Source of the DNA: Telmatospirillum sp.
GTDB lineage: Bacteria > Pseudomonadota > Alphaproteobacteria > Rhodospirillales > Magnetospirillaceae
Assembly (NCBI GenBank): GCA_031291415.1
Contig: JARLJB010000238.1
Coordinates: 1-63,812, forward strand
Length of the DNA: 63,812 bases
Reading direction: 5' to 3'
This document shows, in pieces, positions 39,144 through 56,286 of the stretch (position 1 is the stretch's first letter; each line of letters begins with the position of its first letter). The notes under the pieces are model-generated. The model did no database searches and was not told the DNA's origin. It worked only from the letters and a program-made list of their open reading frames with translations. A program made the translations under genes and the position numbers.

Positions 39144-39809
39144 TCAACTATTAATGGATGATACTTTGGAGACGGAGACTTCGATGTCGCCAATCTTCAA
39201 TTTCGTGGTTCCGCTGGAACTGTCGACACCGGTCACCGTTCCAACCAAGTCGGTCGATGTGGAGACGTCGTCACCGGAAGTATCCGAGGCCGCCACCGAG
39301 AGCGTAAAGTCGCCGGTGCTTTCCGTGCTTCCCGACGTGGTTTTGCCGTCCCAGGAGAATGAATGAGTTCCCGAGGTGGCGTCGCCCGTAGTGGTGTAGA
39401 CCGTATCGCCGCTCGAATCCTTGACCGTCAATTTGACGTTGCTGGCAGCCGAGTCGAGAGTGTAGGTCCATTTCACCGTCCCGCTCTGCATGGGCGAGGT
39501 GGTGCCGCTCGCGGTCACTGTCTTGCCGATGTAACCGAGGCCGTTAGACGTTGCCACCGAATTCAAATTGGTCGAAATGGTTCCCAGGGTATCGTTGATC
39601 GCCAACTCCTGCTCGACACCCGACAGCTGAATCATTTCGCTGGTGAAGGTGTCGGTGTTGGTCGGATTTAAGGGGTCCTGGTTCTTGAGCTGCGTCGTCA
39701 GCAGCGTCAAGAAGGTGTTATAGGACGCGCTGGCCGACGTGGCTGCCGTCGACGAACTCGTGCTGGTACTGCTACCCGCCGTGTTGGAGGTGTTTATTGC
39801 ACTCGTCAT
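39144..39809 (-). CDS. flgD: Flagellar hook assembly protein FlgD
   Basis: A 221-residue hook-capping protein. The Ser/Thr-rich N-terminus is followed by the signature YNTFLTLLTTQLKNQDPLNP and TDTFTSEMIQLSGVEQELAI. A beta-rich domain with GTHSFSWDGKTTSGSTESTG comes next. It is the first gene of flgD-flgE-unknown-flgN-flgK-flgL. Confidence 0.95.
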   Translation of the reverse strand: MTSAINTSNTAGSSTSTSSSTAATSASASYNTFLTLLTTQLKNQDPLNPTNTDTFTSEMIQLSGVEQELAINDTLGTISTNLNSVATSNGLGYIGKTVTASGTTSPMQSGTVKWTYTLDSAASNVKLTVKDSSGDTVYTTTGDATSGTHSFSWDGKTTSGSTESTGDFTLSVAASDTSGDDVSTSTDLVGTVTGVDSSSGTTKLKIGDIEVSVSKVSSINS

Positions 39810-40170: not shown

Positions 40171-41900
40171 ATGAACCGCAAGCAGCGGCGCGCCACCAAA
40201 GCCGGCTCTTCACCGGCTGGCGAGGTCTTCCACGCGAAGGCTATTGCCCTGGTCAGTGGCGGTCAGACAAACGGCCAAACGCTGAAGGATGCCGTCGAGG
40301 CGTTCAGCCGCGCCGTCGCCTTGCAACCGGACAACGCGGAATGGCATGGCGACCTTGGGGCCGCGCTGCAGAGCGCCGGACACTATGAAGACGCCATCGC
40401 CGCCAGCGAACGGGCTATCGCGCTTGATCCGGTGTGCGCCCGCGCCTTCTACAACAGAGGGCTGGCTCTCAAATCGTTGAAGCGATTGGAAGAAGCCATC
40501 ATTTCTTACCGGAGAGCGCTGGTGGTCCGACCGGCCGACCCGGAAACACACAACAACCTCGGCGTGATCTTCGCCGATCTTTTCCGCCCCGAAGAAGCCG
40601 AGGAAGCCTTCCGGGCCGTCCTGGCTCTCCGAGCCGATGACCCGGAGGCGCACAATAATCTCGGCGTCGTTTTGCTCACCCAAGGCAAGTTTGACGACGG
40701 TACCGCAGCCTGCCGGCGGGCCATCGCGCTTCGTCCGTTCTACGCCGAGGCTCGCGCCAACATCGGAACGGCCCTGTTTGAACAGGGCCGCTTTAACGGC
40801 GCTTTTACCACGGCACAACAGGTTCTGGAAATAGAACCTGGCTATGCAGCAGCCGAGAACAACCGCGGCGTCGCGCTGCAGGCCATGGGACGGCTGGCCG
40901 AAGCGACGAAAGCCTTCCGCAAGGCGCTTGTCCTCCGTCCAGACTTCCCCGAAGCCCACTACAACCTCGGTACGACGCTGCTCCAGGATGGCAAATTCCT
41001 CGACGGTTGGCGGGAATATGAATGGCGGTGGAAAGGCGGGGTTGAATCCATGGTTCCCCGGCATTTCCGGCAGCCCCGGTGGGCCGGCGAGGATCTGACC
41101 GGCAAAACCATATTGCTATACGCTGAGCAGGGTTTGGGCGATGCCTTGCAATTTGTCCGGTATGCCGCCCCCATTGCCGCACGGGATGGCCGGGTGATCC
41201 TCGAGGTTTATTCACCGTTGGCGCGATTGCTGACCAGTGTGCCTGGATTAGCCTCGGTGGTTGCCGGCGGCGACGCCCTGCCCGATTTTGACTATCATCT
41301 TCCGCTGATGAGCGCGCCTGGGGTGCTCGGCACCACGCTCGACAGCCTTCCTAACGATACACCTTATATTACTGCCGATGCCCGGCAGGTGGCGGCATGG
41401 AAACAGCGGCTTGCCGGTCTGTCCGGCCTCAGGGTCGGACTGGCCTGGTCCGGGGATCCCCGTCCCCATGATCCGCGCGCCAATTCCGTCGACCGTCGGC
41501 GCAGCATCGCGCTTGCCCGATTGACACCGTTGCTGTCGGTCCCAGGTGTCAGCTTCGTCAGCCTGCAAAAGGGGAGGCCGGCGGCGCAGTTGAACGAAAT
41601 TGCCGCCGACGGACGCCCGTTCGATGCCATGGACCAGGTCGGCGACTTTGCCGACACCGCCGCCCTGGTCGCCAATCTCGACCTCATCATCTCCGTCGAC
41701 ACGTCGATCGTCCACCTGGCCGGCGCCATGGGCAAGCCGGTGTGGATTCTCTCGCGCTTCGACGGCTGCTGGCGCTGGCTGACGGATCGGGATGACTCAC
41801 CTTGGTATCCGACGGCACGATTGTTCCGCCAGACAACGCCGGGTGATTGGAGCACAGTCGTGGAACGGGTGGCGGCGGAACTCGCGCACCTGAGCGGGCA
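40171..41900 (+). repeat. Module 1 of the giant gene
   Basis: Residues 1-577. About eight TPRs, then a GT9-like domain from GWREYEWRWKGG. The module begins with the MNRKQRRA peptide instead of a full starter repeat. Core motifs AEQGLGD and SVDTSIVHL are intact. Confidence 0.8.
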
Positions 41901-44900
41901 ATCGGGTCGGGGCGACCTGCTCTCGGCGCGGCCCAAAACGGTGACGATCAATCGGCTTGCGAGCGACGACCTGGACGAGGCGAAGCGGACGGAGCTTGCC
42001 ACCCCGGCGAAGGGCGCCCGACAACCCGATGAGCGCCGGGCGGCAGCCCTGCTGCGGTTTCCGCGTGCCAGAGAACACCAGCAGGCAGGCCGGTTGCCTG
42101 AAGCGGAAGAGTTTTACCGGCGCATCCTGTCCGACGTCCCTGACCACGCCGCCAGTCTTTACAACCTTGGCCTGATCGTCCTTCAGGGCGACAGACCGGA
42201 CGAAGCGGCGGATCTGATGGAACGGGCGCTCTCGCAGAAAACCGACGATCCGCAGGCCTATTACAATCTCGGCACCGCCTATCACCGCGCGGGCGAACCA
42301 GGGAAAGCAGTCGACGCTTATGGCCGTGCGCTTGCCTTGCGGCCGGATTACCCCGAAGCCGGCAACAATCTGGGCGCCGCCTTGATGGATTTGCGCCGGA
42401 TTGGCGCCGCCGAAGCGGCCTTTCGGAGTGCCATCGCTTTGCGCCCCGCTTATCCGCAAGCCCATTACAATTTGGGAACGGCCTTGCTGCTGCAAGGTCA
42501 TCTGACCGAGGGATGGCAGGAATTCGAATGGCGTTGGCAGGGCGGGGCCCGGTGCCTGACCGCCAGGGCGTTCCTCCAGCCGTCATGGCAGGGCGAAGAC
42601 CCGGCCGGAAAGACCATCCTGCTCTATGGCGAGCAAGGACTGGGCGACATGCTGCAATTCGCCCGCTACGCCACGCCGCTCGCGGCCCGCGGCGCCCGCG
42701 TGATTCTCGAAGTCCATCGCTCGCTCGTCCGTCTGCTTGCCTCCGTTCCGGGTGTCGCCGATGTCGTCGCGATGGGAGATCCGCTCCCCGACGACATCGA
42801 CTTTCAGCTTTCGCTGATGAGTGCGCCACGCGTGATGGAAACGACGTTGGAGAACATTCCCGCCACTGTCCCCTATGTCGCGGGCGATACCGCGCAGACG
42901 GCGGCCTGGCAGGAACGCCTGGCAAAACTCCCGGGTCTCAAGGTCGGGTTGGCCTGGGCGGGCGAACCGCGCCCCGGCGATCCCGAGGCCAATGCCATCG
43001 ACCGGCGACGCAGTCTGGCCATCGCCCGGATGGCGCCGTTGCTCGCGATCCCCGGCATCAGTTTTGTCAGTTTGCAGAAGGGCGCCGCCGCCCGGCAACT
43101 GCACGACCTGCCCTCGGGAAGACGACCACTCGATTGGATGGACGAGGTCACGGATTTTGCAGACACGGCCGCGCTTGTGGCCAATCTCGATCTGGTGATC
43201 ACGGTCGATACGTCGGTCGCCCATTTGGCCGGCGCCATGGGCAAGCCCGTGTGGATTCTGTCGCGCTTCGACGGTTGCTGGCGCTGGCTCCTGGACCGCG
43301 ACGACTCACCTTGGTACCCGACGGCACGTTTGTTCCGCCAAAGATCGGCCGGCGCTTGGCAAGAGGTGCTGGCGCAGGTTGCAACCGAACTGACGAAATT
43401 GGCCGGAAAAACCGCATCTGCACCGCGCCCCGGTCAGGAAGCCACCGTATCGAAGACGTCCAGCGCGACGTCGCGGCTTTTCGACCTGGCACTGGAGCAT
43501 CATCGGGCTGGTCGGCTGACCGAGGCGGCAGCGCTCTATCATCGCGCCATTGACGCCGACCCGAACCATGCCCGAAGCCACTACAATCTTGGCCTGATCG
43601 CCTTGCAGGAAACCGATTACCGGACCGCGGTCGAAACAATCCGCCGCGCCCTGGCGCTAGACCCCGGCAACGCCGAAGCCCAGACAAACCTGGGTACCGC
43701 CTTGCAGGCGCTGAACAAACTGCCCGAGGCGATCGCGGCTTTCCGGGCGTCCATTGAGCTCCGCCCTGATGACGCCCGAGTCCACTTCAATTTGGCAACG
43801 GCTTTGGACGCGGTAGGAAAACCGAAGGAAGCCGCCGCTGCCTACCGTGCCGCCATCGTTCTCAACCCGGCCTTCACCGAGGCTTATGTCAATCTGGCCA
43901 CGACGGTCGCCGCCCCGGGACTGGACGCCATCGGGCTTCTTCGTCGGGCCATCGTCCTTTCCCCGGAAGACGCCAAAATCCAATACGATCTCGGGATGGC
44001 TCTGCAAAATCGCGGAGAAAATGCGATGGCTGAGGCCGCCTTCCAGGCGATACTCGATCGCGATCCCGGCCATCTCAAGGCGCGAGGCGCACTCGAAGTC
44101 CTTTATATTCAGATGGGACGGCCGACCGAGGCGGAGGCCGTCTGTCGAGCCGTCATCGGCGACACGCCGGACAATGTTCCAGCACGTTCGAACCTCGCCG
44201 CCGCTCTTTTCGATCAGGGCCGCTTCGGCGAGGCCCTGGCGGCCGTAAAATCCGCCATCGTTTTCCAACCGGACTTCGCCTGCGCCTACAACGGCCTCGC
44301 CGTTACCCTGCAGACTTTAGGACAATTGGCTGAATCAAGCTCCGCCTACCGGCGTTGCCTCTCTCTCGACCCGAATTATGCCGAAGCCCGTCACAACTGG
44401 GCCACCGCGCTGCTGCAAAACGGCGACTATGCCGAAGGCTGGCGCGAATACGAATGGCGATGGCAGGCCGGTGAAGGGCATATGAAACCCCGGGACTTTT
44501 CCAAGCCGCAATGGGCGGGCGAAGACTTGAATGGCCGAACCATTCTGCTGCACGCGGAACAAGGATTTGGCGACGTCTTGCAATTCGCGCGCTACGCGAC
44601 ACCGCTCGCTGCCGCCGGCGCCCGCGTGATACTTGAGGTCTTCGCACCCCTGAAGCGGCTGTTGGCCAGTGTCCCCGGAGCAGCCCAGGTGGTGGCGACG
44701 GGCGAGGCTCTGCCCAACTTCGACTATCATCTGCCGATGATGAGCGCGCCGGACCTTCTGGGCACCACCCTGGAAACCATCCCGGCCGACATTCCTTACA
44801 TTACGCCCGATCCGCGGCAGATATCGGCGTGGGGCGAAAGACTGGCCGGATTTCCGGGGCTCAAGGTTGGGCTGGTCTGGGCCGGCAATCCAAGACCCGG

Positions 44901-47900
44901 GCAACCGCGCGCTCATCTCGTCGACAGCCGCCGCAGTGTCGCGCTCCGAAGACTGATGCCGGTGCTGTCCGTCCCCGGGGTCACTTTCGTCAGCCTGCAA
45001 AAGGACGAACCGGCGACCCAGATGCTGGGCATCGCACCCGCTTTACGGCCGCAGGACTGGATGAAGGACGTCACCGACTTCGCCGACACGGCGGCTCTGG
45101 TCGCCAATCTCGATCTGGTCATCGCGGTCGACACCTCGATCGTGCATCTGGCCGGCGCTCTCGGAAAACCGGTTTGGATTCTGTCCCGTTACGACGGTTG
45201 CTGGCGCTGGCTGTGGGACCGGGAGGATTCGCCCTGGTACCCGACGGCACGTCTGTTCCGCCAATCGGAACCGGGGAACTGGGACGCGGTGGCAACACGG
45301 GTCGCCGCCGAGCTGACCCGCTTTGCCGCGGATCGCGCCGCACCGGCCAGCCAGCCGTCGCCTCTGGACGAATCCGACAGCCGGCGGGCCGGAGGGTGCC
45401 ACCACGCCAACGAGACCTTTGGTCTGGCGAGAGTCGGTGGCATTGGGACAAAAGCCCAGGCAACGCCCGAATCACCCGCCGAATGGCTGGTCCGAGCAAT
45501 CGAACACCACAAGGCGGGGCGTCTCGAAGAGGCGGAGGCGAACTACGACCGCGCCCTGGCGCTGAAACCCGATTACCCGGAGGCGATGACCAATTTAGCC
45601 TGCCTGTTGCGGGCACGTGGCCGCCACGCCGAGGCGATCGCGCTTCATCGGGAAACGGCGCGTCGCTGGCCGGACTATCCCAGCGTCCACAATAATCTTG
45701 GCGTCGCCCTCAAGGATCTCAACCGGCCGGCCGAGGCAATCGCGGCGTTCCGGGCAGCTGTCCGCCTGAAACCGGCCTATGCGTCGGCGCACACCAATCT
45801 CAGCATCGCCCTGTTGCTGGCCGGGCAGTTCACCGAAGGCTGGGAGGAATATGAATGGCGCTGGCGGGGCGGCCTCGACGCCCTTGTTCCGCGGTCGTTT
45901 CCCCGCCCCTTGTGGACTGGCCAGGATCTGTCCGGGCGCACCATTCTCCTGCATGCTGAACAGGGCCTGGGCGACGCCCTGCAGTTCGTCCGTTACGCCG
46001 CGCCGATCGCCGCCCGCGGCGCCCGCGTAATCCTTGAGGTGCATCCTCCGCTCAAACGGCTTCTCGCCACGGTGCCGGGCGCCGCCCAGGTCATCGCCGG
46101 CGGCGAGCCCCTTCCGCCGTTCGACTATCACCTTCCTTTACTGAGTGCGCCGCATTTGCTGGGCACTGTGCTCGAAACCATTCCCGCCGACATCCCCTAT
46201 GTGCACCCCGACGCCGACTTGGTGGCGGCCTGGGCCAGGCGCCTGGAAGGAAGACCGGGTCTGCGGGTCGGTGTCGTCTGGGCCGGTGATTCCCGTCCGC
46301 ACGACCCGACCTCGAACGCCATCGACCGTCGGCGGAGCATGGCGTTGAAGCGCCTGACGCCATTGCTGTCGGTGCCCGGCGTCCGCTTCATCAGTCTGCA
46401 GAAGGGCACTCCGGCCGGTCAACTGAACGACCTTGCCGCCGATCTGCGGCCGGAAGACTGGATGGACGATGTCACCGACTTTGCCGACACCGCCGCCCTT
46501 GTGGCCAATCTTGATCTGGTCGTTTCGGTCGACACCTCAATTGTGCATCTGGCCGGCGCCATGGGAAAACCGGTCTGGATTCTCTCACGCTTCGACGGTT
46601 GTTGGCGCTGGTTGCTTCATCGCGACGACTCGCCCTGGTACCCGACAGCGCGCCTGTTCCGCCAAACCGAACCAGACAACTGGGAAGAAGTGGTCGCCCG
46701 CGCCGCAGCCGACCTGCGGAACCTCGCCGACCGACCAACCGCACCCTCCTCCGTCATCGACGCCCGCCAGCAACAATCCACAGGCGGAACCACGGCGCCG
46801 GCCGCGACGAAGACGGATGCGGACGACATCGCCGGGCTCTTCGCCCAGGCGATCGAGCATCACGCGGCGGAACGTCTCGATGAGGCGGAAATCTTATATC
46901 TCCGCATGCTGACAGAACATCCGGTCGCCGCCGGTCATGCCGAGGCACACAACAATCTTGGTTTCTTGTACCGCCAACAGGGAAAGCTCGCCGTGGCGGC
47001 GGAGAATTTCCTCCGCGCCATCCGACTGCGGCCGGACTACGGTGAGGCGCACAACAACCTCGGCCTCACCTTCAGCGACCAGGGCGATGCCGAGGCGGCG
47101 ACCGCTTGCTATCGTCGCGCGCTGTCTCTGCAACCGGCCGATGCCCACGCCTTGTCCAATCTGGGCGTCGCCCTGCAGGACCTGGGACGAACCGGCCAGG
47201 CGGAATTCGCCTATCGGCGGGCTCTTGCCATCGCCCCCCTGTTGGCCGGAACCCACTATAACCTTGCTCAGGTCCTGCTGCGTCAGGGCGACTACCGCCA
47301 AGGCTGGCGGGAACATGAATGGCTATGGAAGGGTGGCATCGAACGGGTGAAACCACGCGGTTTCTCCGAGCCGCGATGGACCGGCGAGGATATCGCCGGC
47401 CGGACCATTCTGCTCTACGGCGAACAAGGCCTGGGTGACGTCCTGCAATTTGCCCGCTATGCCACGATCGTCGCCGCCCGCGGCGCCAAAGTTATTCTTG
47501 AGGTACAGCCTCAACTCAAACGCCTGCTCGGCACAGTGCCTGGCGTAGCGCAAGCCGTTGCCCTGGGCGATCCCCTGCCGGCCTTCGACGTCCAGCTTCC
47601 ATTGATGGGCGCCCCCTTCATTCTCGGTACCACGGTCGAGAGCATTCCCGCGACCGTGCCCTATGTCACCGCCGACACCGTTTCGAAGAAACTCTGGAAG
47701 GAACGACTGGCCTCTCTGCCCGGACTCAAGGTTGGACTGGTCTGGGCCGGCGACCCGAGGCCCGGCGACCGACGGGCGGGCGCCGTCGACCGCCGCCGCA
47801 GCATTTCCTTGTCCCGGCTCCTGCCGTTGCTGTCGATTCCCGAGGTAAGCTTCGTCAGTTTGCAAAAAGGGCCTGCCGCCACCCAAATCGCCGATATCGC

Positions 47901-50900
47901 CCCAGGCTTGCGGCCTTATGACCGCATGGAGGACATCGGCGACATCGCCGATACCGCCGCCGTGATCGACAATCTCGATCTGGTGATTTCGGTCGACACC
48001 GCGGTGGCCCATCTGGCCGGTGCTCTGGGCAAACCGGTCTGGATTCTCTCTCGCTTCGATGGTTGCTGGCGCTGGCTGCAGGATCGCGAGGATTCGCCCT
48101 GGTATCCGACGGCGCGGCTGTTCCGTCAGACATCACCGGGCGATTGGGATCTGGTGATCACCCGCTTGGCCGCCGCTTTGAGAACGCAGACGACATGCAC
48201 CCGCCCGGCGGCGGATCTCTCCTTGTCGACCGGCGATACCAAGACCTCCCGCAGCCTCGCCCCGCGGCAGGCGGAGTCCGTCGGCCGGCTGTTCGCTCAG
48301 GCGGTCCGCTATTTCGAAACCGATCGGCTGAACGAAGCAGCCCCCGTCTACCACCGCATTCTGACGCTTGACCCCGACCATGCCGACGCCATGCATCATC
48401 TTGGTCTGATCGCCCTCAGATCGGGACAACTGACCGAAGCGGCCGCTTGGATCATCAAGGCGATGGTCCGCAATCCCGCCTACCCTGAAGCTTACAACAA
48501 TCTCGGCATCATAAGACTGGAACAGGGAGATCTGTCCCAGGCCACGGACATGTTCCACCGCGCCCTCGTTCTCAAGCCCGACTATTCCACGGCGCTATCG
48601 AATTGGGGCAGCACGCAAGGCGAACAAGGGCACTGGAACGCCGCCGAAGCGGCATGCCGTCATGCCGTCTCCCTTGAGCCGGGCTTCGCCGGAGCCTATT
48701 CCAATCTTGGCGTCCTCAAGAGTGAGACCGGCTTTCCGGCCGAAGCGGAAGTCGCCTTCCGGACAGCCATCCTCCTCTCGAACGATCATGCCGAGGCTCA
48801 TTACAACCTGGGGACTACACTGCTCTCCCTTGGCCGATATGAGGAGGGGTGGCCGGAATACGAATGGCGTCTGCGCGGTGATAATCCGGAGATCAAGCCG
48901 CGGAATTTCGTCCAGCCGGCCTGGACCGGAGAGCCGCCCGCCGGAAAGACCATCTTGTTGTATGCCGAGCAAGGGCTTGGCGATCTTCTGCAATTCTCTC
49001 GCTACGCGACGCTTCTCGCGGCCGCCGGCGCCCGGGTTATTCTCGAAACATATGGACAACTGACACGGTTGCTCACCACCGTGCCTGGGGTTGCCCAGGT
49101 GGTGGCCAAGGGCTCCCCCTTGCCTGACTTCGACTTTCATCTCTCGGTGATGAGCGCCCCCTATCGTCTCGGGACGACGATCGACTCCATTCCGGCGAAT
49201 ATTCCTTACATCTCGCCAGATGCCGGACAGGTGGAAGCGTGGGGAACCCGCCTTGCCGGGATCTCCGGCCTCAAGGTCGGATTGGTTTGGGCCGGGGACC
49301 CCCGACCCCATGACCGCCGGGCCCATGCCGTCGACCGCCGCCGCAGCATGGCCGCGACCAAAATGCTGCCGTTGCTGCGTCTGCCGGGAGTGACCTTCGT
49401 CAGTCTGCAGAAAGGTTCCCCGGCAGCTCAGATCACCGACATACCGGCAGAGCTGCGACCTTACGACTGGATGGGAGACGTGACCGACTTCGCCGACACC
49501 GCGGCACTGGTCGCCAACCTGGATCTGGTCATTGCCGTCGACACCTCGGTCGTCCATCTCGTCGGCGCCCTCGGCAAGCCGATCTGGGTTCTCTCGCGTT
49601 TTGCCGGATGCTGGCGTTGGTTCGTTGATGGAGACGAATCGCCCTGGTACCCGACGGCACGTGTCTTCCGGCAGACGACTCGCGGCGATTGGGACGAAGT
49701 CATCGGCCGCGTCGTCGTCGCCTTGCAGCAACTGACCGCCGGGCAACAGACCCAGCAGACGCTCCCGGAAATTACCTGGGACTCGTCACCGGCGAAAGAA
49801 ACACTGGGAACCGAACAGCCGCCGCTGTTCGTCGAAGCGCTGCGACATCACCAGGCGGGACGGTTGGCCGAAGCGGAACAGCTTTATCGGCGCGTTCTCG
49901 ATGAACATCCCGATCACTTCGACAGCCTGCACCATCTTGGCCTGATCGCTCTTTGGTCCAACGACGCGACCAGTGCCGTGCAATGGATCAGCAAAGCCAT
50001 CCTGCACAACCGGCAGCACATCGGGGCGCATATCAACCTTGGCAAGGCGCTTTGCAAGATGGGACGGGTCACCGACGCCGTCGTCGTCTTCCGCATGGCG
50101 GTCGCCCTCGACCCGGAGGACGCCGACAACCGTTATCATCTGGGTGCCTGCCTGCATGATCTTGGAGCACTGGACGAGGCGGCGGCAGCTTATCGCGAAG
50201 CCCTCGTCCTGCGGCCGGAATTCTCCCGGGCCCTGACCAATCTGGGCAGCGCGCTTGGCGAACAGGACCGGCTGGAGGAGGCCATCGGCGTTTGCCGCTG
50301 GGCGGTTGCCGCCGATCCAAGAAAGGCCCACGCCCACACCAATCTCGGCGCCTGCCTGCACGAACTGCACCGAATCGACGAGGCGATCGCGTCTTATCGG
50401 CAGGCGCTTGCGTTGTCGTCGGTTCTGCCGGAAACGCACCATAACCTGGCGACCGCGCTCCTGTCGCAGGGAGCCTACGCCGAAGGATGGGTGGAATATG
50501 AATGGCGCTGGGAAGGCGGCGTCGCGGGCCTCGTCCCCAGGCAATTCGACAGCCCCTTGTGGCGAGGCGAACCTCTCGCCGGTCGGACCATCCTGTTGCA
50601 TGGAGAACAGGGGTTGGGCGACGTCCTGCAGTTCGCCCGCTATGCCTCGGTCATCGCCTCGTGTGGCGCCAAGGTGGTACTTGAGGTCTATCCTCCCCTG
50701 AAACGCCTGTTGTCCACTGTTGCAGGCGTCGCGCAGGTGGTGGCAACCGGTGACCCCTTGCCCGCCTTCGATTGCCACCTGCCGCTGATGAGCGCGCCCT
50801 TGCGTCTGGGAACCAGGCTCGACAATATTCCGGCCACCGTCCCCTATGTCGATGCCGACCCGGTCGCTGTCATCGCATGGCGGGAGAAACTCGCCGGGTT

Positions 50901-53900
50901 GCCGGGTCTGAAGGTTGGATTGGTGTGGGCCGGCGATCCGCGCACCCATAATCCGCGCAACAATGCCGTTGACCGCCGGCGCAGCATTCCGCTCGTCCGG
51001 ATGGCGCCGCTGCTGGCGACACCGGGGGTCAGCTTCGTCAGTCTGCAAAAGGGCGAGGCCGCGGCGCAAGCCGGTCTGCTCGCCGCGGCACAACGTCCCT
51101 TCGACATGATGAACGATGTGGCGGATTTCGCCGACACGGCGGCGCTGATCGCCAATCTCGATCTGGTGATCACCGTCGACACCTCGGTCGGCCATTTGGC
51201 TGGCGCCATGGGCAAACCGGTTTGGATTTTGAACCGTCTCAACGGCTGTTGGCGTTGGCTCGACGAACGCGAGGATTCTCCTTGGTATCCCACCGCTCGC
51301 TTGTTCCGCCAAACCAGGCTCGGGGATTGGGACGATGTCATCGTCCGGGTCGCTGCCGCCTTGGCGGAATGGACGGCAACGGCCAGCCAGCCAACCGTCG
51401 ACGCCCTGTTCGCCGATGCCGTGCGCCATCATCAGGAAAACCGGCTGGACGAAGCTGACAGCCTTTATCGCCAGATTCTTGCACGCGAACCGCGGCAGCC
51501 GGTTGTCTTGCATCATCGCGGCGTCGTCGCGCAGCAGCGGGAAAATCCGCGAGCGGCGGTTGCCTTCATCCGGCAATCACTCTGTCTTGTACCCTCCTAC
51601 ACGGAAGCCTGGAGCAATCTCGGAACGGCGCTGCGCGACTGCGGAGACCGCGCGCAGGCGGAAGTCTGCTTCCGGCGGGCCGGTTCGTTACGGCCCGATC
51701 TTGCCGAACCGCAAAACAATCTGGCGGCGCTCTACAAGGAAGAGGGCCGGCTCGACGAAGCGATCGAGGCTTTTCGCAAGGCCCTCTCGCTGCAGCCCGA
51801 CCATCCGGAGATTCATTGCAATCTGGCGGCCGCTTTGCTGGAACGAGGCGACTACGCGGAAGGTTGGCAGGAACACGAATGGCGGTTGCACGAGGCTGTC
51901 CCTTGGGCCAAGCCGAAACCGCTGCCGAATCCGGTGTGGGCCGGCGAAGACCTTAAGGGCCGCGCCATTCTGCTGCGGAGCGAACAGGGACTGGGTGATG
52001 ATCTGCAATTCGCCCGCTTCGCGACGCCGATCGCGAACCGTGGCGCGCGGGTCATCCTTGAGGTTCAGGCGTCGCTCAGGCGTCTGCTGGCCAGTGTGCC
52101 GGGTGTCGAGCAGGTGATCGCCCAAGGGGAGCCCGTTCCCGACGTCGACTGCTATCTGTCCTCGATGAGCGCGCCCTGTCTTCTGGGCACGACGGTCGAA
52201 ACCATTCCCGCCCAGCCTTATGTCACGGCCGATGCCGGGCTGGCGGCCGCCTGGAACGAGCGGCTTGCCGGTCTTGCCGGTCTCAAGGTCGGACTGGTGT
52301 GGGCCGGCGATCCGCGTCCCTATGACCGGCGCGCCAATGCAATCGACCGCCGGCGCAGCATCGCGGCGGTCAAGATGTTGCCGCTGCTGAAAACCGCCGG
52401 GGTCAGTTTCATCAGTCTGCAAAAGGGCGAGGCGGCAGCCCAAATCGGCGAGATCTCCCCCGGACTGCGGCCGCTCGACCTGATGGACGAGGTTGTCGAT
52501 TTTGCCGACACGGCGGCCATCGTCGCCAATCTCGATCTGGTGATTTCCGCCGACACATCGGTGGTGCATCTGGCCGGCGCCATGGGCAAACCCGTGTGGG
52601 TCCTCTCGCGTTTTGATGGCTGCTGGCGATGGCTGACCGGTCGCGACGACAGCCCCTGGTACCCGTCGGCCCGCCTGTTCCGCCAGATCGAGCCCGGTAA
52701 CTGGGACGAGGTGATCGGTCGGGTGGCCAAAGAGCTGGCGAAAAAGGCGGCGGATTTTGTCGTTGCCGGACCGCCGGCAATCCGGCCAGCGGTTCCCGAA
52801 GAACTGATGGCCCAGGCCGTTTCCCTTCACAAGGCCGGTCGAACGGCCGATGCCGAGACACTCTACCGGCGAATTCTGGCTTTTTCCCCCGATCATCCGT
52901 TCGTCCTCCATCAACTCGGGATGATCCGGCAGAGCTTGGGCGACGCAGATCAAGCCCGGCAAATGATCGAACGCGCCATCGCTGTCGCTCCCGATTACGC
53001 CGAAGCCTGCAACAATCTCGGAGCCGCCCTGGCCGATCGGGGAAAACCGGCCGATGCCATCGCCTGCTGCCGCCGCGCCATCGTCCTCAGACCGGATTAT
53101 GCCAAGGCCCAGAGCAACCTCGGCAAGGCACTGAAGGATCTGGGCAAGGCGGCGGATGCGGCGATCTGGTACCAAAGGGCGCTCGTCATCGATCCGCAGT
53201 TCACCATGGCCTTCAGCAATCTGGCGGCGGCGCTGCAGGATATGGGAAGACTGGCGGAAGCACGGGAGGCCGGCGAGAAGGCCCTCATGCTCGCCCCCGA
53301 TCACCCGATCGCCCTCAATAACCACGGTATCACCTTACAGGAGCAGGGCAACGAGCTGGCCGCCATCAGCTGTTACGAACGAGCCGTCCGCCTCGCCCCG
53401 GACTATGCCGAAGCCCACACCAATCTTGGCATGGCGGCGTTGCTTCATGGCGATTACACCCGCGGCTGGCAGGAATATGAGTGGCGGTGGAACGGCGGCA
53501 TCACGGCCCTGCGCCAGCGAGATTTCTCCAAGCCGCGCTGGACCGGCGACGACCTTCGAGGACGAACCATTCTGCTGCATGCCGAGCAGGGCTTCGGCGA
53601 CGTCCTGCAATTCGCCCGCTACGCCAAGCCGATCGCCGCCCGCGGCGGCAAGGTGATCCTTGAGGTGCACCCGCCTCTCATGCGGTTGCTGTCTACCGTC
53701 CCCGGCGTAAGCCGGGTGGTTGCCATGGGCGCACCGCTGCCCGAATTCGATTGCCATTTGCCCCTGATGAGTGCGCCGCTGGTCATGGGAACCACGGAAC
53801 GGACCATTCCGGCCGAGACACCCTATGTCGTCCCCGATGCCGCGAAGGTGGCCGCCTGGAGCCGGCGCCTGGCCGGATTGCCAGGGCTTAAGGTCGGCCT

Positions 53901-56286
53901 GGTGTGGGCTGGCAATCCAAGGCCGCACGATCCGGGCTCGAATCTCGTCGACCGCCGCCGCAGCATGACGCTGCAGCAACTGATGCCGCTTCTCAAGGTT
54001 CCCTCGGTCAGTTTCGTCAACCTGCAAAAGGACGGACCGGCGACGCAAATCGGCGAAATCTCCGCGGATTTGCGCCCGCATGACTGGATGGCCGAGGTGG
54101 CGGATTTCGCCGACACCGCCGCCCTGATCGCCAATCTCGATCTGGTTATTTCCGTCGATACGTCGGTCGTGCATTTGGCCGGCGCGCTGGGCAAACCGGT
54201 CTGGATTCTCTCGCGCTTCAATGGTTGCTGGCGTTGGCTCACCGACCGCGAGGATTCGCCCTGGTATCCGACGGCGCGTCTGTTCCGCCAAACCAGGCGC
54301 GGCGATTGGGACGAGGTGGTGACGCGGGTGGCGTCCGCCCTGGCGGACCTGACGGACAGGACGCAAAAGCCTTCTGCCGATGCAGCGCAGCTGTTCCAGC
54401 AGGCCGTCGAGCATCATCAGGCCGGACGGTTTGACGAGGCGGAAAGGCTTTACCGAAGCATCCTCGCCACGGAACCGCGCAACGTCGGTTGTCTCTATCA
54501 TCTAGGTCTTGTCGCGCAGCAACGCGGTCGCCACGCCGACGCCGTCGACCTGTTCCAGCAAGCCGTCCAACTCAACGGCAAGGTGGCTGGGCTCCATGGC
54601 TCTCTCGGGACATCGCTGGCTGCGTTGGGACGTCTCGACGATGCGATAGCCTCGCACAAACGGGCCATCGCCCTTGAGCCCGAGCTCGTTTCGGCCATTT
54701 ACAATCTTGGCAACGCCTACCTCGCCCGGGGAAACCGCCGAGAGGCAAGCGCCTGTTTCCAGCGGACTGCGGCGCTTCGGCCGGATCTCGCCGAACCCTA
54801 TAACAATTTGGGCAGCATCTTTTCGGCGATTGGCGCTTTCGAAGCCGCGGAACGGTCTTTCGAAAGGGCGATCGCTCTGCAGCCGCAAGTCGCGGCCGGG
54901 CACAACAACCTCGGAAACGTCAGAAAGGAACAGGGCCGACTGGCGGAAGCCGAGGCCTGTTTCCAACAGGCGATCTCCTTGCAGCCGGACTACGTCGAAG
55001 CACATTACAATCTGGCCAATCTTCGACTGGACATGAGCGACATCAAAGGGGCAATGGCGCGGTTCCAGCAGGTCATCGCCGTCAAGCCGACGTTGCCCGA
55101 GGCTTACAACAACCTTGGCTCCGTCCTCCACATGAACGGCGACGTCGAGCAGGCGGTGACATGCTACAAACGCGTGCTGACCCTCGATCCCCGCTTCCCC
55201 GAGGCGCACGCCAATCTCGGCACGGTGTACCGCGACAGGGGAGACATCGACTTGGCAATCGCCACCTACCGGCACGCCATCGATCTTGACCCCACCTACC
55301 CTCTGGCCCACACCAATCTGGCGGTGTCGCTCCTGCTGCGAGGCGAGTTCGAGGAAGGCCTGCGCGAGTTCGAGTGGCGCGAGCGCGGTGGACCGAACGG
55401 CCCCAACCGCGAATATAGCCAACCGGAATGGACCGGGGAGCCTCTCGCCGGACGTACGCTCCTCCTGCACGCCGAACAAGGTTTGGGCGACACGCTGCAC
55501 TTTGTCCGTTACGCGCCAATTCTGGCGGCAAAAGGAGCGAAGATCATTCTGGAGGTCTACCCGCCGCTCGTCCGGCTGCTGGCCAGCGTTCCCGGGGTTT
55601 CCCGGATCCTCGCCACCGGAACGGAGCTTCCCCCGCATGACTTCCATCTGTCGCTGATGAGTGTCGCCTATCGATTGGGCACCAGACTGGACAGCATCCC
55701 GGCCAGTGTCCCCTATTTGGCGCCGGAGCCCCGGCAGGTCGCCGACTGGGCCCGGCGGCTCGCCCGCCTGCCGGGATTGAAGGTCGGACTGGTTTGGGCG
55801 GGAGAACCGCGGCCGCACGATCCCCGCGCCCATTCCGTCGATCGCCGACGCAGCATGAAACTCGAACAATTGTCGCCGCTGCTGGCGCTTCCGGGAGTCA
55901 GTTTCGTCAGCCTGCAAAAGGGATCGCCTGCCCGGCAGTTGGACGATATCCCCGCCGAACTGCGGCCGCTCGACATGATGGAAGATATTGCCGATTTCGC
56001 CGATACGGCGGCCCTGGTCGCCAATCTCGATCTGGTTATTTCGGTCGACACCTCGGTCGCGCACCTGACGGGGGCTCTAGCCATACCAATATGGATTCTC
56101 TCCCGCTTCGACGGTTGCTGGCGTTGGTTGCAGGACCGCGAGGATTCCCCCTGGTATCCATCCGCCCGGCTGTTTCGTCAAAAATCGCCCGGCGACTGGA
56201 CTGACGTGGTCGAACGCGTCACCAATGCCTTGGCGGATGTGATCGATAACCCGCCAGCGCCGACGATCCCGGAGACTCCGTCGTGA
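40171..56286 (+). CDS. Giant ten-module TPR/GT9-like glycosyltransferase (5371 aa)
   Basis: One uninterrupted frame encodes a protein of roughly 580 kDa with no signal peptide or membrane segment, so it is presumably cytoplasmic. It starts MNRKQRRATKAG and consists of ten modules. Each opens with a starter repeat of the form AxxHHxAGRLxEAExLYRxIL and has 4-10 TPRs (about 67 in total), then a GT-B domain of about 300 residues. That domain has EQG(L/F)GDxLQF, GLVWAGDPRP, VDRRRS, FVSLQK, DFADTAALIANLDLVISVDT and HLAGAMGKPVWILSRF. The D-T-S/A-x-x-H-L-A-x-A-x-G-K-P block matches GT9 heptosyltransferases. Family members with one module are ordinary; ten fused modules are not. TPRs may bind acceptor proteins. 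It is coupled to the next gene by GTGA. Confidence 0.88.
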   Translation: MNRKQRRATKAGSSPAGEVFHAKAIALVSGGQTNGQTLKDAVEAFSRAVALQPDNAEWHGDLGAALQSAGHYEDAIAASERAIALDPVCARAFYNRGLALKSLKRLEEAIISYRRALVVRPADPETHNNLGVIFADLFRPEEAEEAFRAVLALRADDPEAHNNLGVVLLTQGKFDDGTAACRRAIALRPFYAEARANIGTALFEQGRFNGAFTTAQQVLEIEPGYAAAENNRGVALQAMGRLAEATKAFRKALVLRPDFPEAHYNLGTTLLQDGKFLDGWREYEWRWKGGVESMVPRHFRQPRWAGEDLTGKTILLYAEQGLGDALQFVRYAAPIAARDGRVILEVYSPLARLLTSVPGLASVVAGGDALPDFDYHLPLMSAPGVLGTTLDSLPNDTPYITADARQVAAWKQRLAGLSGLRVGLAWSGDPRPHDPRANSVDRRRSIALARLTPLLSVPGVSFVSLQKGRPAAQLNEIAADGRPFDAMDQVGDFADTAALVANLDLIISVDTSIVHLAGAMGKPVWILSRFDGCWRWLTDRDDSPWYPTARLFRQTTPGDWSTVVERVAAELAHLSGQSGRGDLLSARPKTVTINRLASDDLDEAKRTELATPAKGARQPDERRAAALLRFPRAREHQQAGRLPEAEEFYRRILSDVPDHAASLYNLGLIVLQGDRPDEAADLMERALSQKTDDPQAYYNLGTAYHRAGEPGKAVDAYGRALALRPDYPEAGNNLGAALMDLRRIGAAEAAFRSAIALRPAYPQAHYNLGTALLLQGHLTEGWQEFEWRWQGGARCLTARAFLQPSWQGEDPAGKTILLYGEQGLGDMLQFARYATPLAARGARVILEVHRSLVRLLASVPGVADVVAMGDPLPDDIDFQLSLMSAPRVMETTLENIPATVPYVAGDTAQTAAWQERLAKLPGLKVGLAWAGEPRPGDPEANAIDRRRSLAIARMAPLLAIPGISFVSLQKGAAARQLHDLPSGRRPLDWMDEVTDFADTAALVANLDLVITVDTSVAHLAGAMGKPVWILSRFDGCWRWLLDRDDSPWYPTARLFRQRSAGAWQEVLAQVATELTKLAGKTASAPRPGQEATVSKTSSATSRLFDLALEHHRAGRLTEAAALYHRAIDADPNHARSHYNLGLIALQETDYRTAVETIRRALALDPGNAEAQTNLGTALQALNKLPEAIAAFRASIELRPDDARVHFNLATALDAVGKPKEAAAAYRAAIVLNPAFTEAYVNLATTVAAPGLDAIGLLRRAIVLSPEDAKIQYDLGMALQNRGENAMAEAAFQAILDRDPGHLKARGALEVLYIQMGRPTEAEAVCRAVIGDTPDNVPARSNLAAALFDQGRFGEALAAVKSAIVFQPDFACAYNGLAVTLQTLGQLAESSSAYRRCLSLDPNYAEARHNWATALLQNGDYAEGWREYEWRWQAGEGHMKPRDFSKPQWAGEDLNGRTILLHAEQGFGDVLQFARYATPLAAAGARVILEVFAPLKRLLASVPGAAQVVATGEALPNFDYHLPMMSAPDLLGTTLETIPADIPYITPDPRQISAWGERLAGFPGLKVGLVWAGNPRPGQPRAHLVDSRRSVALRRLMPVLSVPGVTFVSLQKDEPATQMLGIAPALRPQDWMKDVTDFADTAALVANLDLVIAVDTSIVHLAGALGKPVWILSRYDGCWRWLWDREDSPWYPTARLFRQSEPGNWDAVATRVAAELTRFAADRAAPASQPSPLDESDSRRAGGCHHANETFGLARVGGIGTKAQATPESPAEWLVRAIEHHKAGRLEEAEANYDRALALKPDYPEAMTNLACLLRARGRHAEAIALHRETARRWPDYPSVHNNLGVALKDLNRPAEAIAAFRAAVRLKPAYASAHTNLSIALLLAGQFTEGWEEYEWRWRGGLDALVPRSFPRPLWTGQDLSGRTILLHAEQGLGDALQFVRYAAPIAARGARVILEVHPPLKRLLATVPGAAQVIAGGEPLPPFDYHLPLLSAPHLLGTVLETIPADIPYVHPDADLVAAWARRLEGRPGLRVGVVWAGDSRPHDPTSNAIDRRRSMALKRLTPLLSVPGVRFISLQKGTPAGQLNDLAADLRPEDWMDDVTDFADTAALVANLDLVVSVDTSIVHLAGAMGKPVWILSRFDGCWRWLLHRDDSPWYPTARLFRQTEPDNWEEVVARAAADLRNLADRPTAPSSVIDARQQQSTGGTTAPAATKTDADDIAGLFAQAIEHHAAERLDEAEILYLRMLTEHPVAAGHAEAHNNLGFLYRQQGKLAVAAENFLRAIRLRPDYGEAHNNLGLTFSDQGDAEAATACYRRALSLQPADAHALSNLGVALQDLGRTGQAEFAYRRALAIAPLLAGTHYNLAQVLLRQGDYRQGWREHEWLWKGGIERVKPRGFSEPRWTGEDIAGRTILLYGEQGLGDVLQFARYATIVAARGAKVILEVQPQLKRLLGTVPGVAQAVALGDPLPAFDVQLPLMGAPFILGTTVESIPATVPYVTADTVSKKLWKERLASLPGLKVGLVWAGDPRPGDRRAGAVDRRRSISLSRLLPLLSIPEVSFVSLQKGPAATQIADIAPGLRPYDRMEDIGDIADTAAVIDNLDLVISVDTAVAHLAGALGKPVWILSRFDGCWRWLQDREDSPWYPTARLFRQTSPGDWDLVITRLAAALRTQTTCTRPAADLSLSTGDTKTSRSLAPRQAESVGRLFAQAVRYFETDRLNEAAPVYHRILTLDPDHADAMHHLGLIALRSGQLTEAAAWIIKAMVRNPAYPEAYNNLGIIRLEQGDLSQATDMFHRALVLKPDYSTALSNWGSTQGEQGHWNAAEAACRHAVSLEPGFAGAYSNLGVLKSETGFPAEAEVAFRTAILLSNDHAEAHYNLGTTLLSLGRYEEGWPEYEWRLRGDNPEIKPRNFVQPAWTGEPPAGKTILLYAEQGLGDLLQFSRYATLLAAAGARVILETYGQLTRLLTTVPGVAQVVAKGSPLPDFDFHLSVMSAPYRLGTTIDSIPANIPYISPDAGQVEAWGTRLAGISGLKVGLVWAGDPRPHDRRAHAVDRRRSMAATKMLPLLRLPGVTFVSLQKGSPAAQITDIPAELRPYDWMGDVTDFADTAALVANLDLVIAVDTSVVHLVGALGKPIWVLSRFAGCWRWFVDGDESPWYPTARVFRQTTRGDWDEVIGRVVVALQQLTAGQQTQQTLPEITWDSSPAKETLGTEQPPLFVEALRHHQAGRLAEAEQLYRRVLDEHPDHFDSLHHLGLIALWSNDATSAVQWISKAILHNRQHIGAHINLGKALCKMGRVTDAVVVFRMAVALDPEDADNRYHLGACLHDLGALDEAAAAYREALVLRPEFSRALTNLGSALGEQDRLEEAIGVCRWAVAADPRKAHAHTNLGACLHELHRIDEAIASYRQALALSSVLPETHHNLATALLSQGAYAEGWVEYEWRWEGGVAGLVPRQFDSPLWRGEPLAGRTILLHGEQGLGDVLQFARYASVIASCGAKVVLEVYPPLKRLLSTVAGVAQVVATGDPLPAFDCHLPLMSAPLRLGTRLDNIPATVPYVDADPVAVIAWREKLAGLPGLKVGLVWAGDPRTHNPRNNAVDRRRSIPLVRMAPLLATPGVSFVSLQKGEAAAQAGLLAAAQRPFDMMNDVADFADTAALIANLDLVITVDTSVGHLAGAMGKPVWILNRLNGCWRWLDEREDSPWYPTARLFRQTRLGDWDDVIVRVAAALAEWTATASQPTVDALFADAVRHHQENRLDEADSLYRQILAREPRQPVVLHHRGVVAQQRENPRAAVAFIRQSLCLVPSYTEAWSNLGTALRDCGDRAQAEVCFRRAGSLRPDLAEPQNNLAALYKEEGRLDEAIEAFRKALSLQPDHPEIHCNLAAALLERGDYAEGWQEHEWRLHEAVPWAKPKPLPNPVWAGEDLKGRAILLRSEQGLGDDLQFARFATPIANRGARVILEVQASLRRLLASVPGVEQVIAQGEPVPDVDCYLSSMSAPCLLGTTVETIPAQPYVTADAGLAAAWNERLAGLAGLKVGLVWAGDPRPYDRRANAIDRRRSIAAVKMLPLLKTAGVSFISLQKGEAAAQIGEISPGLRPLDLMDEVVDFADTAAIVANLDLVISADTSVVHLAGAMGKPVWVLSRFDGCWRWLTGRDDSPWYPSARLFRQIEPGNWDEVIGRVAKELAKKAADFVVAGPPAIRPAVPEELMAQAVSLHKAGRTADAETLYRRILAFSPDHPFVLHQLGMIRQSLGDADQARQMIERAIAVAPDYAEACNNLGAALADRGKPADAIACCRRAIVLRPDYAKAQSNLGKALKDLGKAADAAIWYQRALVIDPQFTMAFSNLAAALQDMGRLAEAREAGEKALMLAPDHPIALNNHGITLQEQGNELAAISCYERAVRLAPDYAEAHTNLGMAALLHGDYTRGWQEYEWRWNGGITALRQRDFSKPRWTGDDLRGRTILLHAEQGFGDVLQFARYAKPIAARGGKVILEVHPPLMRLLSTVPGVSRVVAMGAPLPEFDCHLPLMSAPLVMGTTERTIPAETPYVVPDAAKVAAWSRRLAGLPGLKVGLVWAGNPRPHDPGSNLVDRRRSMTLQQLMPLLKVPSVSFVNLQKDGPATQIGEISADLRPHDWMAEVADFADTAALIANLDLVISVDTSVVHLAGALGKPVWILSRFNGCWRWLTDREDSPWYPTARLFRQTRRGDWDEVVTRVASALADLTDRTQKPSADAAQLFQQAVEHHQAGRFDEAERLYRSILATEPRNVGCLYHLGLVAQQRGRHADAVDLFQQAVQLNGKVAGLHGSLGTSLAALGRLDDAIASHKRAIALEPELVSAIYNLGNAYLARGNRREASACFQRTAALRPDLAEPYNNLGSIFSAIGAFEAAERSFERAIALQPQVAAGHNNLGNVRKEQGRLAEAEACFQQAISLQPDYVEAHYNLANLRLDMSDIKGAMARFQQVIAVKPTLPEAYNNLGSVLHMNGDVEQAVTCYKRVLTLDPRFPEAHANLGTVYRDRGDIDLAIATYRHAIDLDPTYPLAHTNLAVSLLLRGEFEEGLREFEWRERGGPNGPNREYSQPEWTGEPLAGRTLLLHAEQGLGDTLHFVRYAPILAAKGAKIILEVYPPLVRLLASVPGVSRILATGTELPPHDFHLSLMSVAYRLGTRLDSIPASVPYLAPEPRQVADWARRLARLPGLKVGLVWAGEPRPHDPRAHSVDRRRSMKLEQLSPLLALPGVSFVSLQKGSPARQLDDIPAELRPLDMMEDIADFADTAALVANLDLVISVDTSVAHLTGALAIPIWILSRFDGCWRWLQDREDSPWYPSARLFRQKSPGDWTDVVERVTNALADVIDNPPAPTIPETPS
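41901..43410 (+). repeat. Module 2 of the giant gene
   Basis: Residues about 578-1080. Five TPRs and one GT9-like domain (GWQEFEWRWQGG; GEQGLGD; TVDTSVAHL). The linker in front is charged and low in complexity. Confidence 0.8.
43411..45335 (+). repeat. Module 3 of the giant gene
   Basis: Residues about 1081-1722. About ten TPRs, tied with module 10 for most, and a GT9-like domain with EQGFGD (Phe in place of Leu) and AVDTSIVHL. Confidence 0.8.
45336..46740 (+). repeat. Module 4 of the giant gene
   Basis: Residues about 1723-2190. Only four TPRs, the shortest TPR block of the array. The GT9-like domain is complete (AEQGLGD; SVDTSIVHL). Confidence 0.8.
46741..48196 (+). repeat. Module 5 of the giant gene
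   Basis: Residues about 2191-2675. Five TPRs; the first has a short insertion (HPVAAGHAEAHNNLG). The GT9-like domain has EHEWLWKGG and SVDTAVAHL. Confidence 0.8.
48197..49747 (+). repeat. Module 6 of the giant gene
   Basis: Residues about 2676-3192. Six TPRs. The GT9-like domain is more divergent: YEWRLRGDNPEIK at the entry, HLVGALGKPIWVLSRFAGC and WFVDGDESPWYPTARVF at the end. EQGLGD and AVDTSVVHL are kept. Confidence 0.8.
49748..51381 (+). repeat. Module 7 of the giant gene
   Basis: Residues about 3193-3737. Seven TPRs. The GT9-like domain has VDTSVGHL and ILNRLNGCWRW in place of the usual SRFDGCWRW; the core is otherwise intact. Confidence 0.8.
51382..52759 (+). repeat. Module 8 of the giant gene
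   Basis: Residues about 3738-4196. Five TPRs. The entry is changed (EHEWRLHEAVPWAKPKP) and two residues are missing in ETIPAQPYVT. Other modules have ETIPADIPYVT. SADTSVVHL replaces SVDTSVVHL. Confidence 0.8.
52760..54360 (+). repeat. Module 9 of the giant gene
   Basis: Residues about 4197-4730. Seven TPRs; GT9-like domain with EQGFGD, FVNLQKD and SVDTSVVHL. Confidence 0.8.
54361..56253 (+). repeat. Module 10 of the giant gene
   Basis: Residues about 4731-5361. About ten TPRs. The GT9-like domain is the most divergent: it enters with FEWRERGGPNGPN, has LHFVRY for LQFARY, and reads HLTGALAIPIWILSRF, losing the Gly-Lys of the A-x-G-K-P motif. Confidence 0.8.

Follow-up and report, generated by a model that had tools for sequence, protein, structure and literature searches.

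What can a bacterium do with a single gene in which ten tetratricopeptide repeat (TPR) parts alternate with ten glycosyltransferase (GT) domains? The gene concerned occupies positions 40171-56286 (+) of the window, i.e., the whole stretch of 63,812 nucleotides that was analyzed (G000:C44:1-63812), taken from a Telmatospirillum sp. genome of 7.14 Mb in 412 contigs. In a preliminary description, it was regarded as a series of whole ancestral genes fused in frame, acting either as an assembly line or as a multi-site glycosylating scaffold. The reading preferred here, to which slightly better than an even chance is given, is that its product is an FlmG-like enzyme that glycosylates flagellar axial proteins in the cytoplasm, its ten sockets for docking being served by a single common chemistry. 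The acceptors would be flagellins, perhaps together with hook or hook-associated proteins.

Organization of the Ten-Unit Gene

The frame starts with ATG and comprises 5371 codons with a single stop, at its end, for a predicted product of 5371 aa and 586.6 kDa. Over the same stretch, stops number 117 and 78 in the other two forward frames, and 26, 149, and 119 in the reverse frames. The GC contents at the three codon positions are 0.701/0.488/0.737, and the order GC3 > GC1 > GC2 is found in 20 of 26 segments of 600 nt, the six others having GC1 close to GC3 and GC2 lowest; the frame looks coding over its entire length. A scan upstream of the gene found neither promoter nor terminator, and its own start is without a clear Shine-Dalgarno sequence. 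GTG, TTG, and a few ATG codons are present near the unit borders, the in-frame starts near the nine borders having Shine-Dalgarno matches of at most four bases.

From the open reading frame, Pfam matches, and unit mapping, ten units can be delimited, all on the forward strand: unit 1 at 40171-41898 (GT part 41005-41898), unit 2 at 41899-43407 (GT part 42511-43407), unit 3 at 43408-45330 (GT part 44437-45330), unit 4 at 45331-46731 (GT part 45838-46731), unit 5 at 46732-48195 (GT part 47302-48195), unit 6 at 48196-49740 (GT part 48847-49740), unit 7 at 49741-51378 (GT part 50485-51378), unit 8 at 51379-52752 (GT part 51862-52752), unit 9 at 52753-54357 (GT part 53464-54357), and unit 10 at 54358-56247 (GT part 55357-56247), with 7, 5, 9, 4, 5, 6, 7, 5, 7, and 10 TPRs, respectively. 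The GT domains measure 297-299 aa and the TPR parts with which they alternate 161-343 aa, linkers counted in. The claim of ten TPR+GT9-like units in one frame holds on a Pfam check of the chain: the TPRs are far above the cut-offs, and GT9 (PF01075) is above its cut-off for the whole chain and, when the units are taken singly, in eight of the ten, the match being mostly to a short stretch of the profile (about 172-205). Pfam Glyco_transf_41 was not among the best 25 of the 26 and of the 43 families for the two parts of the chain, a weak match being possible.

A shared starter repeat (AxxHHxAGRLxEAE) had been said to open each unit. It is recognizable in most of them, but is exact only in units 4 and 7 (M4, M7); nine of its ten fixed letters are found in M2, M3, M5, and M10, seven in M8 and M9, and five in M6, while the four found in unit 1 (M1) represent the chance level, i.e., the repeat is absent there. 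The GT parts of the ten units exhibit 55-72% pairwise identity and are therefore neither recent copies nor assembly echoes; as the array also recurs in other assemblies, duplication of units during assembly is ruled out.

Genomic Neighborhood

The array continues in two downstream genes, one of 858 aa with a single TPR+GT9-like unit (unit 11; 56283-58859, +), whose GTG start overlaps the stop of the giant gene, and one of 1105 aa with two such units (units 12 and 13; 58856-62173, +), whose ATG overlaps the preceding stop. They are followed by a GT41-like gene (62131-63654, +), which encodes 507 aa if read from the earliest ATG in its frame, the true start being perhaps a later ATG. Directly upstream, on the opposite strand, the array is divergent from flgD-flgE-flgK-flgL, namely a flgD-like gene (hook capping; 39144-39809, -), a flgE-like gene (hook; 37366-39105, -), and a flgK-like gene (hook-filament junction; 34406-36523, -), and a flgL-like gene (33150-34385, -), whose Pfam match is Flagellin_C and which is assigned to FlgL by its place after flgK. 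Farther from the array, the window harbors FliL, a rod gene of the FlgE/F/G type, FlgA, and FlgH. The flagellar neighbors, units 11-13, and the GT41-like gene had not figured in the preliminary description of the giant gene. None of the ten neighbors scanned is a polysaccharide gene, and the flgL-like gene gave no match when searched against plasmids.

Arrays in Related Genomes

Among five genomes of the genus, units can be found in four, this one included, and none in the fifth (0.9 Mb). Telmatospirillum siberiense 26-4b1 (G001, locus L044) exhibits, in the same place as the giant gene, an uninterrupted 14-unit frame of 7454 aa; its successive frames carry 14, 1, and 3 units, those of the present genome (G000) 10, 1, and 2. 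In Telmatospirillum sp. SA7853_bin3 (G002, L033), three units, a gap, and seven units are followed by frames of one and two units. This break between units 3 and 4 consists of ten N in a G/C run (G002:C82, about 41829-42258), so that the reading of a real fission into 3 + 7 units was dropped, the interruption being an assembly gap; G002 may have the same ten-unit gene. The array of the fourth genome (G003) is interrupted by contig ends. Array units are neighbored by flgD and flgE in all four genus genomes with units: in G000, G001, and G002 it is the first unit that adjoins them, and in G003 a partial unit found on a separate contig. The GT41-like gene comes after the last unit in G001, G002, and G003 also.

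Outside the genus, a search of 55 genomes of the family identified in another genus (G021) eight separate one-unit frames in a row (L122, L123; G021:C32:22442-35747), located about 6-10 kb from flgD, flgE, and flgK, with flagellin in between. This row of TPR-GT frames is the unfused counterpart of the giant gene and, together with the resemblance of the units to complete single genes, it supports the proposal that the unit is a whole ancestral gene fused in frame. In another relative (G020:C51; L120:1262-18054), a 3876-aa frame combines three GT41 domains and one GT9-like domain, counted over pieces, and a second frame of 2014 aa has one GT41 and one GT9-like domain, both frames having TPRs as well; a flagellin-like fragment is close by, where the contig begins. 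No further frames above 2100 aa were found among the matches listed for the order (199 genomes) and the class (385 genomes), where E-value limits of 1e-90 and 1e-100 were applied and at most 11 and at most six candidates were scored per genome, other multi-unit genes being possible.

Chains of at least five modules, the existence of which elsewhere had been raised as a check, are found not only in T. siberiense but also in Microcoleus vaginatus (L102), with five units in 3326 aa; as this locus is on a complete chromosome, multi-unit chains are not confined to drafts. The 79 loci that were named are the best 79 of 586 confirmed stretches. For those of G005, G012, G018, G019, G022, and G023, the stretches searched gave no match to the flagellar proteins of the window or to the flagellin queries; G022 has a weak match to the GT41-like gene. 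In L070, L075, L081, L085, and L103, the final GT domain has the C-terminal half of the profile (about 140-296) before the N-terminal half (1-139), like a circularly permuted GT-B domain. An initial count of six units in such Geobacter-type frames was too high, the last two matches being the swapped halves of one GT domain.

Motifs and Predicted Fold of the Units

The EQG[LF]GD and DTxxxH motifs are kept in all ten GT domains of the giant gene. Over the arrays of G000, G001, and G002, the strict EQG[LF]GD pattern is present in 12/13, 18/18, and 12/13 units, and the strict DT..H pattern in 13/13, 18/18, and 12/13, respectively. In an alignment of 60 GT domains, selected from 174 candidates, G45, D46, and H236 are invariant (60/60) and D231 is kept in at least 90%. 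The GD and DxxxxH motifs have roles in WaaC.

Unit 8 was modeled with AlphaFold2 (72 sequences; pLDDT 95.1, pTM 0.91), and the prediction displays an arm of TPR helices and, after it, an alpha/beta domain of the GT-B type. In Foldseek searches against the PDB, SPY and OGT rank highest for the whole unit (TM about 0.4, E about 1e-13). With the predicted GT domain alone (pLDDT 92.5), GT9 enzymes come first, namely 3tov (E 1.1e-7, TMq 0.62) and WaaF (E 4.2e-7, TMq 0.59), followed by TibC and WaaC. A sequence search of the PDB with the GT profile A1 gave no match up to E 0.1. By hhalign, only the DTxxxH region was aligned between the GT domain and the GT9 genes of this genome (probability 14.7), a result of little weight with four of five rows (L002-L005) in the wrong frame.

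Position-Specific Arms and Similar GT Domains

When the arrays of G000 and G002 are compared, the raw best match of the TPR part is at the same position for all 13 units, and likewise for whole units (p 2e-5 in a permutation test, the lowest value that 50,000 draws allow). The GT part behaves differently, with 6/13 raw best matches on the diagonal, rising to 11/13 after centering; GT-only identity was accordingly abandoned as too weak a signal of orthology, the TPR part being needed. TPR identity amounts to 55.6% (G002) and 55.2% (G001) at the same position vs. 36.6% and 37.3% at other positions, whereas GT identity is 63.8% and 66.8% vs. 59.0% and 62.2%.

Within the repeats, positions 2, 5, 9, 12, 13, 33, and 34, which we take to be the canonical ligand-facing ones, are 60% (G002) and 53% (G001) identical between orthologous arms, but 14-15% identical between different arms. 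The corresponding values are 44% (G002) and 42% (G001) vs. 22% for outer positions, and 72% vs. 44% for core positions. The ligand-facing surface therefore varies most between arms and yet, within an arm, is conserved more strongly than the outer face, which can be read as ten different, conserved, predicted binding specificities on one common catalyst.

The arms also keep their size. The TPR counts of the ten units in G002 are 7, 5, 10, 4, 5, 6, 7, 5, 7, and 10, and TPR-part lengths in G000 and G002 show a mean difference of 7.6 aa and an r of 0.99 over eight comparable positions, units 1 and 4 being left out; by plain position, r is 0.87 with G001 over nine positions, unit 1 being left out. 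Unit order is kept in G002, while T. siberiense has five extra units and two units elsewhere, the whole-unit reciprocal best matches of units 1-13 being its units 1, 2, 3, 11, 13, 6, 7, 8, 9, 14, 15, 16, and 17. For unit 6, the best T. siberiense match is unit 12 by TPR part only and unit 6 by whole unit; for unit 13, it is unit 18 (raw) or 17 (centered) by TPR part only and unit 17 by whole unit. In a GT tree, where bootstrap support was not settled, only some positions are joined, and the partial unit beside flgD in G003 (C389) groups with unit 11 of G001. Gene conversion among GT domains had been suggested by G000 alone (63.6% identity within the array vs. 59.0% to other G002 positions), but was dropped because the within-array value of G002 (58.9%) equals the cross value and that of G001 is 62.5% vs. 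62.2%.

Association With Flagellin Genes

Two single-unit genes of this genome (C270, C216) each come immediately after a flagellin gene, at about 195 bp and in the same orientation; the GT part of the C270 gene is matched by profile A1 (E 1.6e-62), not by Pfam. These flagellin-adjoining genes represent 2/16 of the GT matches outside the array. At G002:C35:20338-22895, a TPR-GT frame comes after a flagellin on its own strand, which makes a further pair of flagellin and TPR-GT genes; around the G002 array (C82:1-56000), no flagellin was matched by the queries. Flagellin_N matches, fragments counted, number 10, 6, and 6 in G000, G001, and G002, which differs from their 13, 18, and 13 units, respectively. 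Contig C249 of this genome (L140) has a flagellin gene start at both ends, the assembly possibly having stopped there at nearly identical copies of flagellin.

In the Geobacter-type multi-unit loci (L066, L070, L071, L075, L081, L085, and L103), a flagellin match is found about 60-220 bp after the frame in all seven cases, and the flagellin of L103 was confirmed by Pfam. With six usable query records, a flagellin match is in reach of 7/12 multi-unit named loci vs. 3/66 others (Fisher p 3e-5), a count in which all seven positives are of the Geobacter type and hence not independent, L033 (Telmatospirillum, no match) is left out, and L051 is taken as single (two parts of one domain). No flagellin match is in reach of the cyanobacterial multi-unit loci L095, L102, L104, and L107 or of locus L034. 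On plasmid p1 of Azospirillum sp. TSH100 (L141), TPR-GT genes are found close to a gene, about 20 kb long, whose product is an Ig-like domain protein and may be a non-flagellar acceptor for the TPR-GT family. The cyanobacterial multi-unit genes without flagellin and this Azospirillum neighbor indicate that the TPR-GT family is not tied to flagella.

Alternative Explanations

On the assembly-line proposal, the ten GT domains would add sugars in succession, building a longer glycan on one acceptor with unit order as sugar order. Ten serial GT domains with conserved motifs, a GT41-like gene after the array, the combination of GT41 and GT9-like domains in one chain in G020, and a unit order shared with G002, along with the weak GT position signal seen after centering, are all consistent with it. 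We nevertheless hold it to be quite unlikely: GT domains from different positions resemble each other almost as much as orthologous ones do, unlike the expectation for different donors or linkages, the displacement of units 4 and 5 to places 11 and 13 in T. siberiense has changed the order, and the strong position signal is located in the protein-binding arms. The alternative option of the preliminary description, a multi-site glycosylating scaffold, fits this pattern of position-specific arms and similar GT domains. A glycosyltransferase of polysaccharides (LPS, capsule, or exopolysaccharide), with the TPRs as complex adaptors, could be supposed from the likeness of the predicted GT fold to the LPS heptosyltransferases WaaC and WaaF. 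Against the absence of polysaccharide genes from the scanned neighbors, the presence elsewhere in the genome of seven stronger GT9 genes that could serve LPS, and the position-specific ligand surfaces of the TPRs, this assignment appears decidedly improbable.

The enzyme could modify non-flagellar proteins such as large adhesins or other secreted surface proteins, its flagellar neighborhood being incidental, since TPR+GT9-like genes are widespread, cyanobacteria included, and single units adjoin the giant Ig-like protein gene of the Azospirillum plasmid. Yet the adjacency of flgD and flgE to units in all four genus genomes with units, the proximity of flgD-flgE-flgK in another genus, the flagellin next to the multi-unit genes of all seven Geobacter-type loci, and the flagellin-TPR-GT pairs of this very genome make such a coincidence rather unlikely. 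Finally, the cell might make shorter pieces, through internal starts or proteolysis, or the giant frame might consist of genes joined by an assembly error. The interruption of the G002 frame and the start codons near unit borders would point this way, but the former is an assembly gap and the latter have poor Shine-Dalgarno matches, a weak test considering that the start of the giant gene is no better in this respect. With an uninterrupted 14-unit frame in T. siberiense and no stop across 16 kb, shorter pieces or a misjoin are judged improbable.

Proposed Mode of Action

As an FlmG-like flagellar enzyme, the product of the giant gene would bring ten units together in one chain, if made at full length, and three more would be supplied by the two overlapping genes. 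Each TPR arm would hold a particular acceptor segment, and the adjoining GT-B domain would glycosylate this segment with a nucleotide-sugar as donor. The reaction would be the same, or nearly so, in all GT domains while the arms differ, giving ten sockets per molecule, perhaps in simultaneous use; one molecule could then act on more than one acceptor, or on more than one segment of the same acceptor, ahead of export from the cytoplasm. Docking and glycosylation before export are proposed by analogy with FlmG, in which the TPR part binds flagellins. The giant gene itself would go back to single-unit genes in a row, which were duplicated and fused in frame.

As regards the donor, the modeled GT9-like fold tentatively suggests ADP-heptose or another nucleotide-sugar. 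NeuB has no match in this genome, while 9/14 control genomes, Caulobacter vibrioides included, have one; pseudaminic acid, the donor of FlmG, is therefore probably not made here, and judging from gene content the donor of the giant enzyme probably differs.

A bolder reading, which remains tentative and is more doubtful than the enzyme assignment itself, is that a single chain of 0.6-0.8 MDa embodies a glycosylation code, in which 10-14 conserved TPR sockets, every one with a separate acceptor segment of the flagellum and joined to copies of one catalyst, would set the sites that are decorated and perhaps their proportions. If so, one molecule would decide which flagellar sites carry sugar and perhaps in which proportion. 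To our knowledge, the choice of acceptors by TPR-guided glycosyltransferases such as FlmG, OGT, and SPY is poorly understood. With 10-14 arms of apparently different specificity, closely similar catalysts, and orthologues in three species, arm-acceptor pairs could be read against a near-constant catalyst, and the giant chain would constitute a natural design for multi-site protein glycosylation.

Comparison With Known Systems

OGT and SPINDLY (GT41) also have a TPR arm beside a GT-B domain that modifies proteins, and they are the best Foldseek matches of the whole unit, but they belong to another GT family and their TM to the unit is about 0.4. As far as is known, they have one unit per chain. 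Among GT9 enzymes, the heptosyltransferases WaaC, WaaF, and 3tov provide the nearest solved folds of the GT domain and have a DTxxxH-type motif in common with it; in contrast, they are devoid of TPRs, WaaC and WaaF have LPS acceptors, and Pfam GT9 matches the giant gene in part. TibC and the BAHT protein heptosyltransferases share the GT9-like fold of its GT domain, and TibC is, by PDB title, an iron-containing dodecamer. We know of no repeated TPR-GT units in these enzymes. Like the giant gene in its proposed role, they act on protein acceptors (PMC4358343).

Single-unit TPR-GT proteins are already known and annotated. Plasmid-borne genes of this kind from Azospirillum, Paraburkholderia, and others are 41-46% identical to unit 9 over 94-99% coverage (best 25 of 88 records) and, where annotated, are called tetratricopeptide repeat protein or tetratricopeptide repeat-containing glycosyltransferase family protein; they differ in having one unit per gene in the region examined. 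The multi-unit genes of the Geobacter type and of cyanobacteria likewise carry several TPR-GT9 units in frame, those of the Geobacter type preceding flagellin, but at the loci seen they contain no more than four whole units and one more whose halves are swapped, and no more than five units (Microcoleus vaginatus L102), respectively, compared with ten in the giant gene. As to whether the architecture is undescribed, no description of a multi-unit TPR-GT chain was found in the literature searched, i.e., open-licence PMC papers only.

The closest system is FlmG from Caulobacter crescentus, a flagellin O-glycosyltransferase of 596 aa with a TPR part (1-313) and a GT-B part (309-596). The TPR part of FlmG is reported to bind flagellins, the GT part alone neither binds flagellins nor restores motility, and pseudaminic acid is required (PMC7591256). 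FlmG resembles one unit of the giant gene in size and in combining an N-terminal TPR part with a C-terminal GT-B domain, and both are linked genetically to flagellar genes or flagellins. They differ in that FlmG consists of one unit, while the giant gene has ten in a chain plus three downstream, and in that FlmG has a pseudaminic acid donor, while NeuB is without a match in the Telmatospirillum genome. The term FlmG-like is accordingly used on architecture and context only, and by that measure the multi-unit chain represents a new form of the FlmG-like type.
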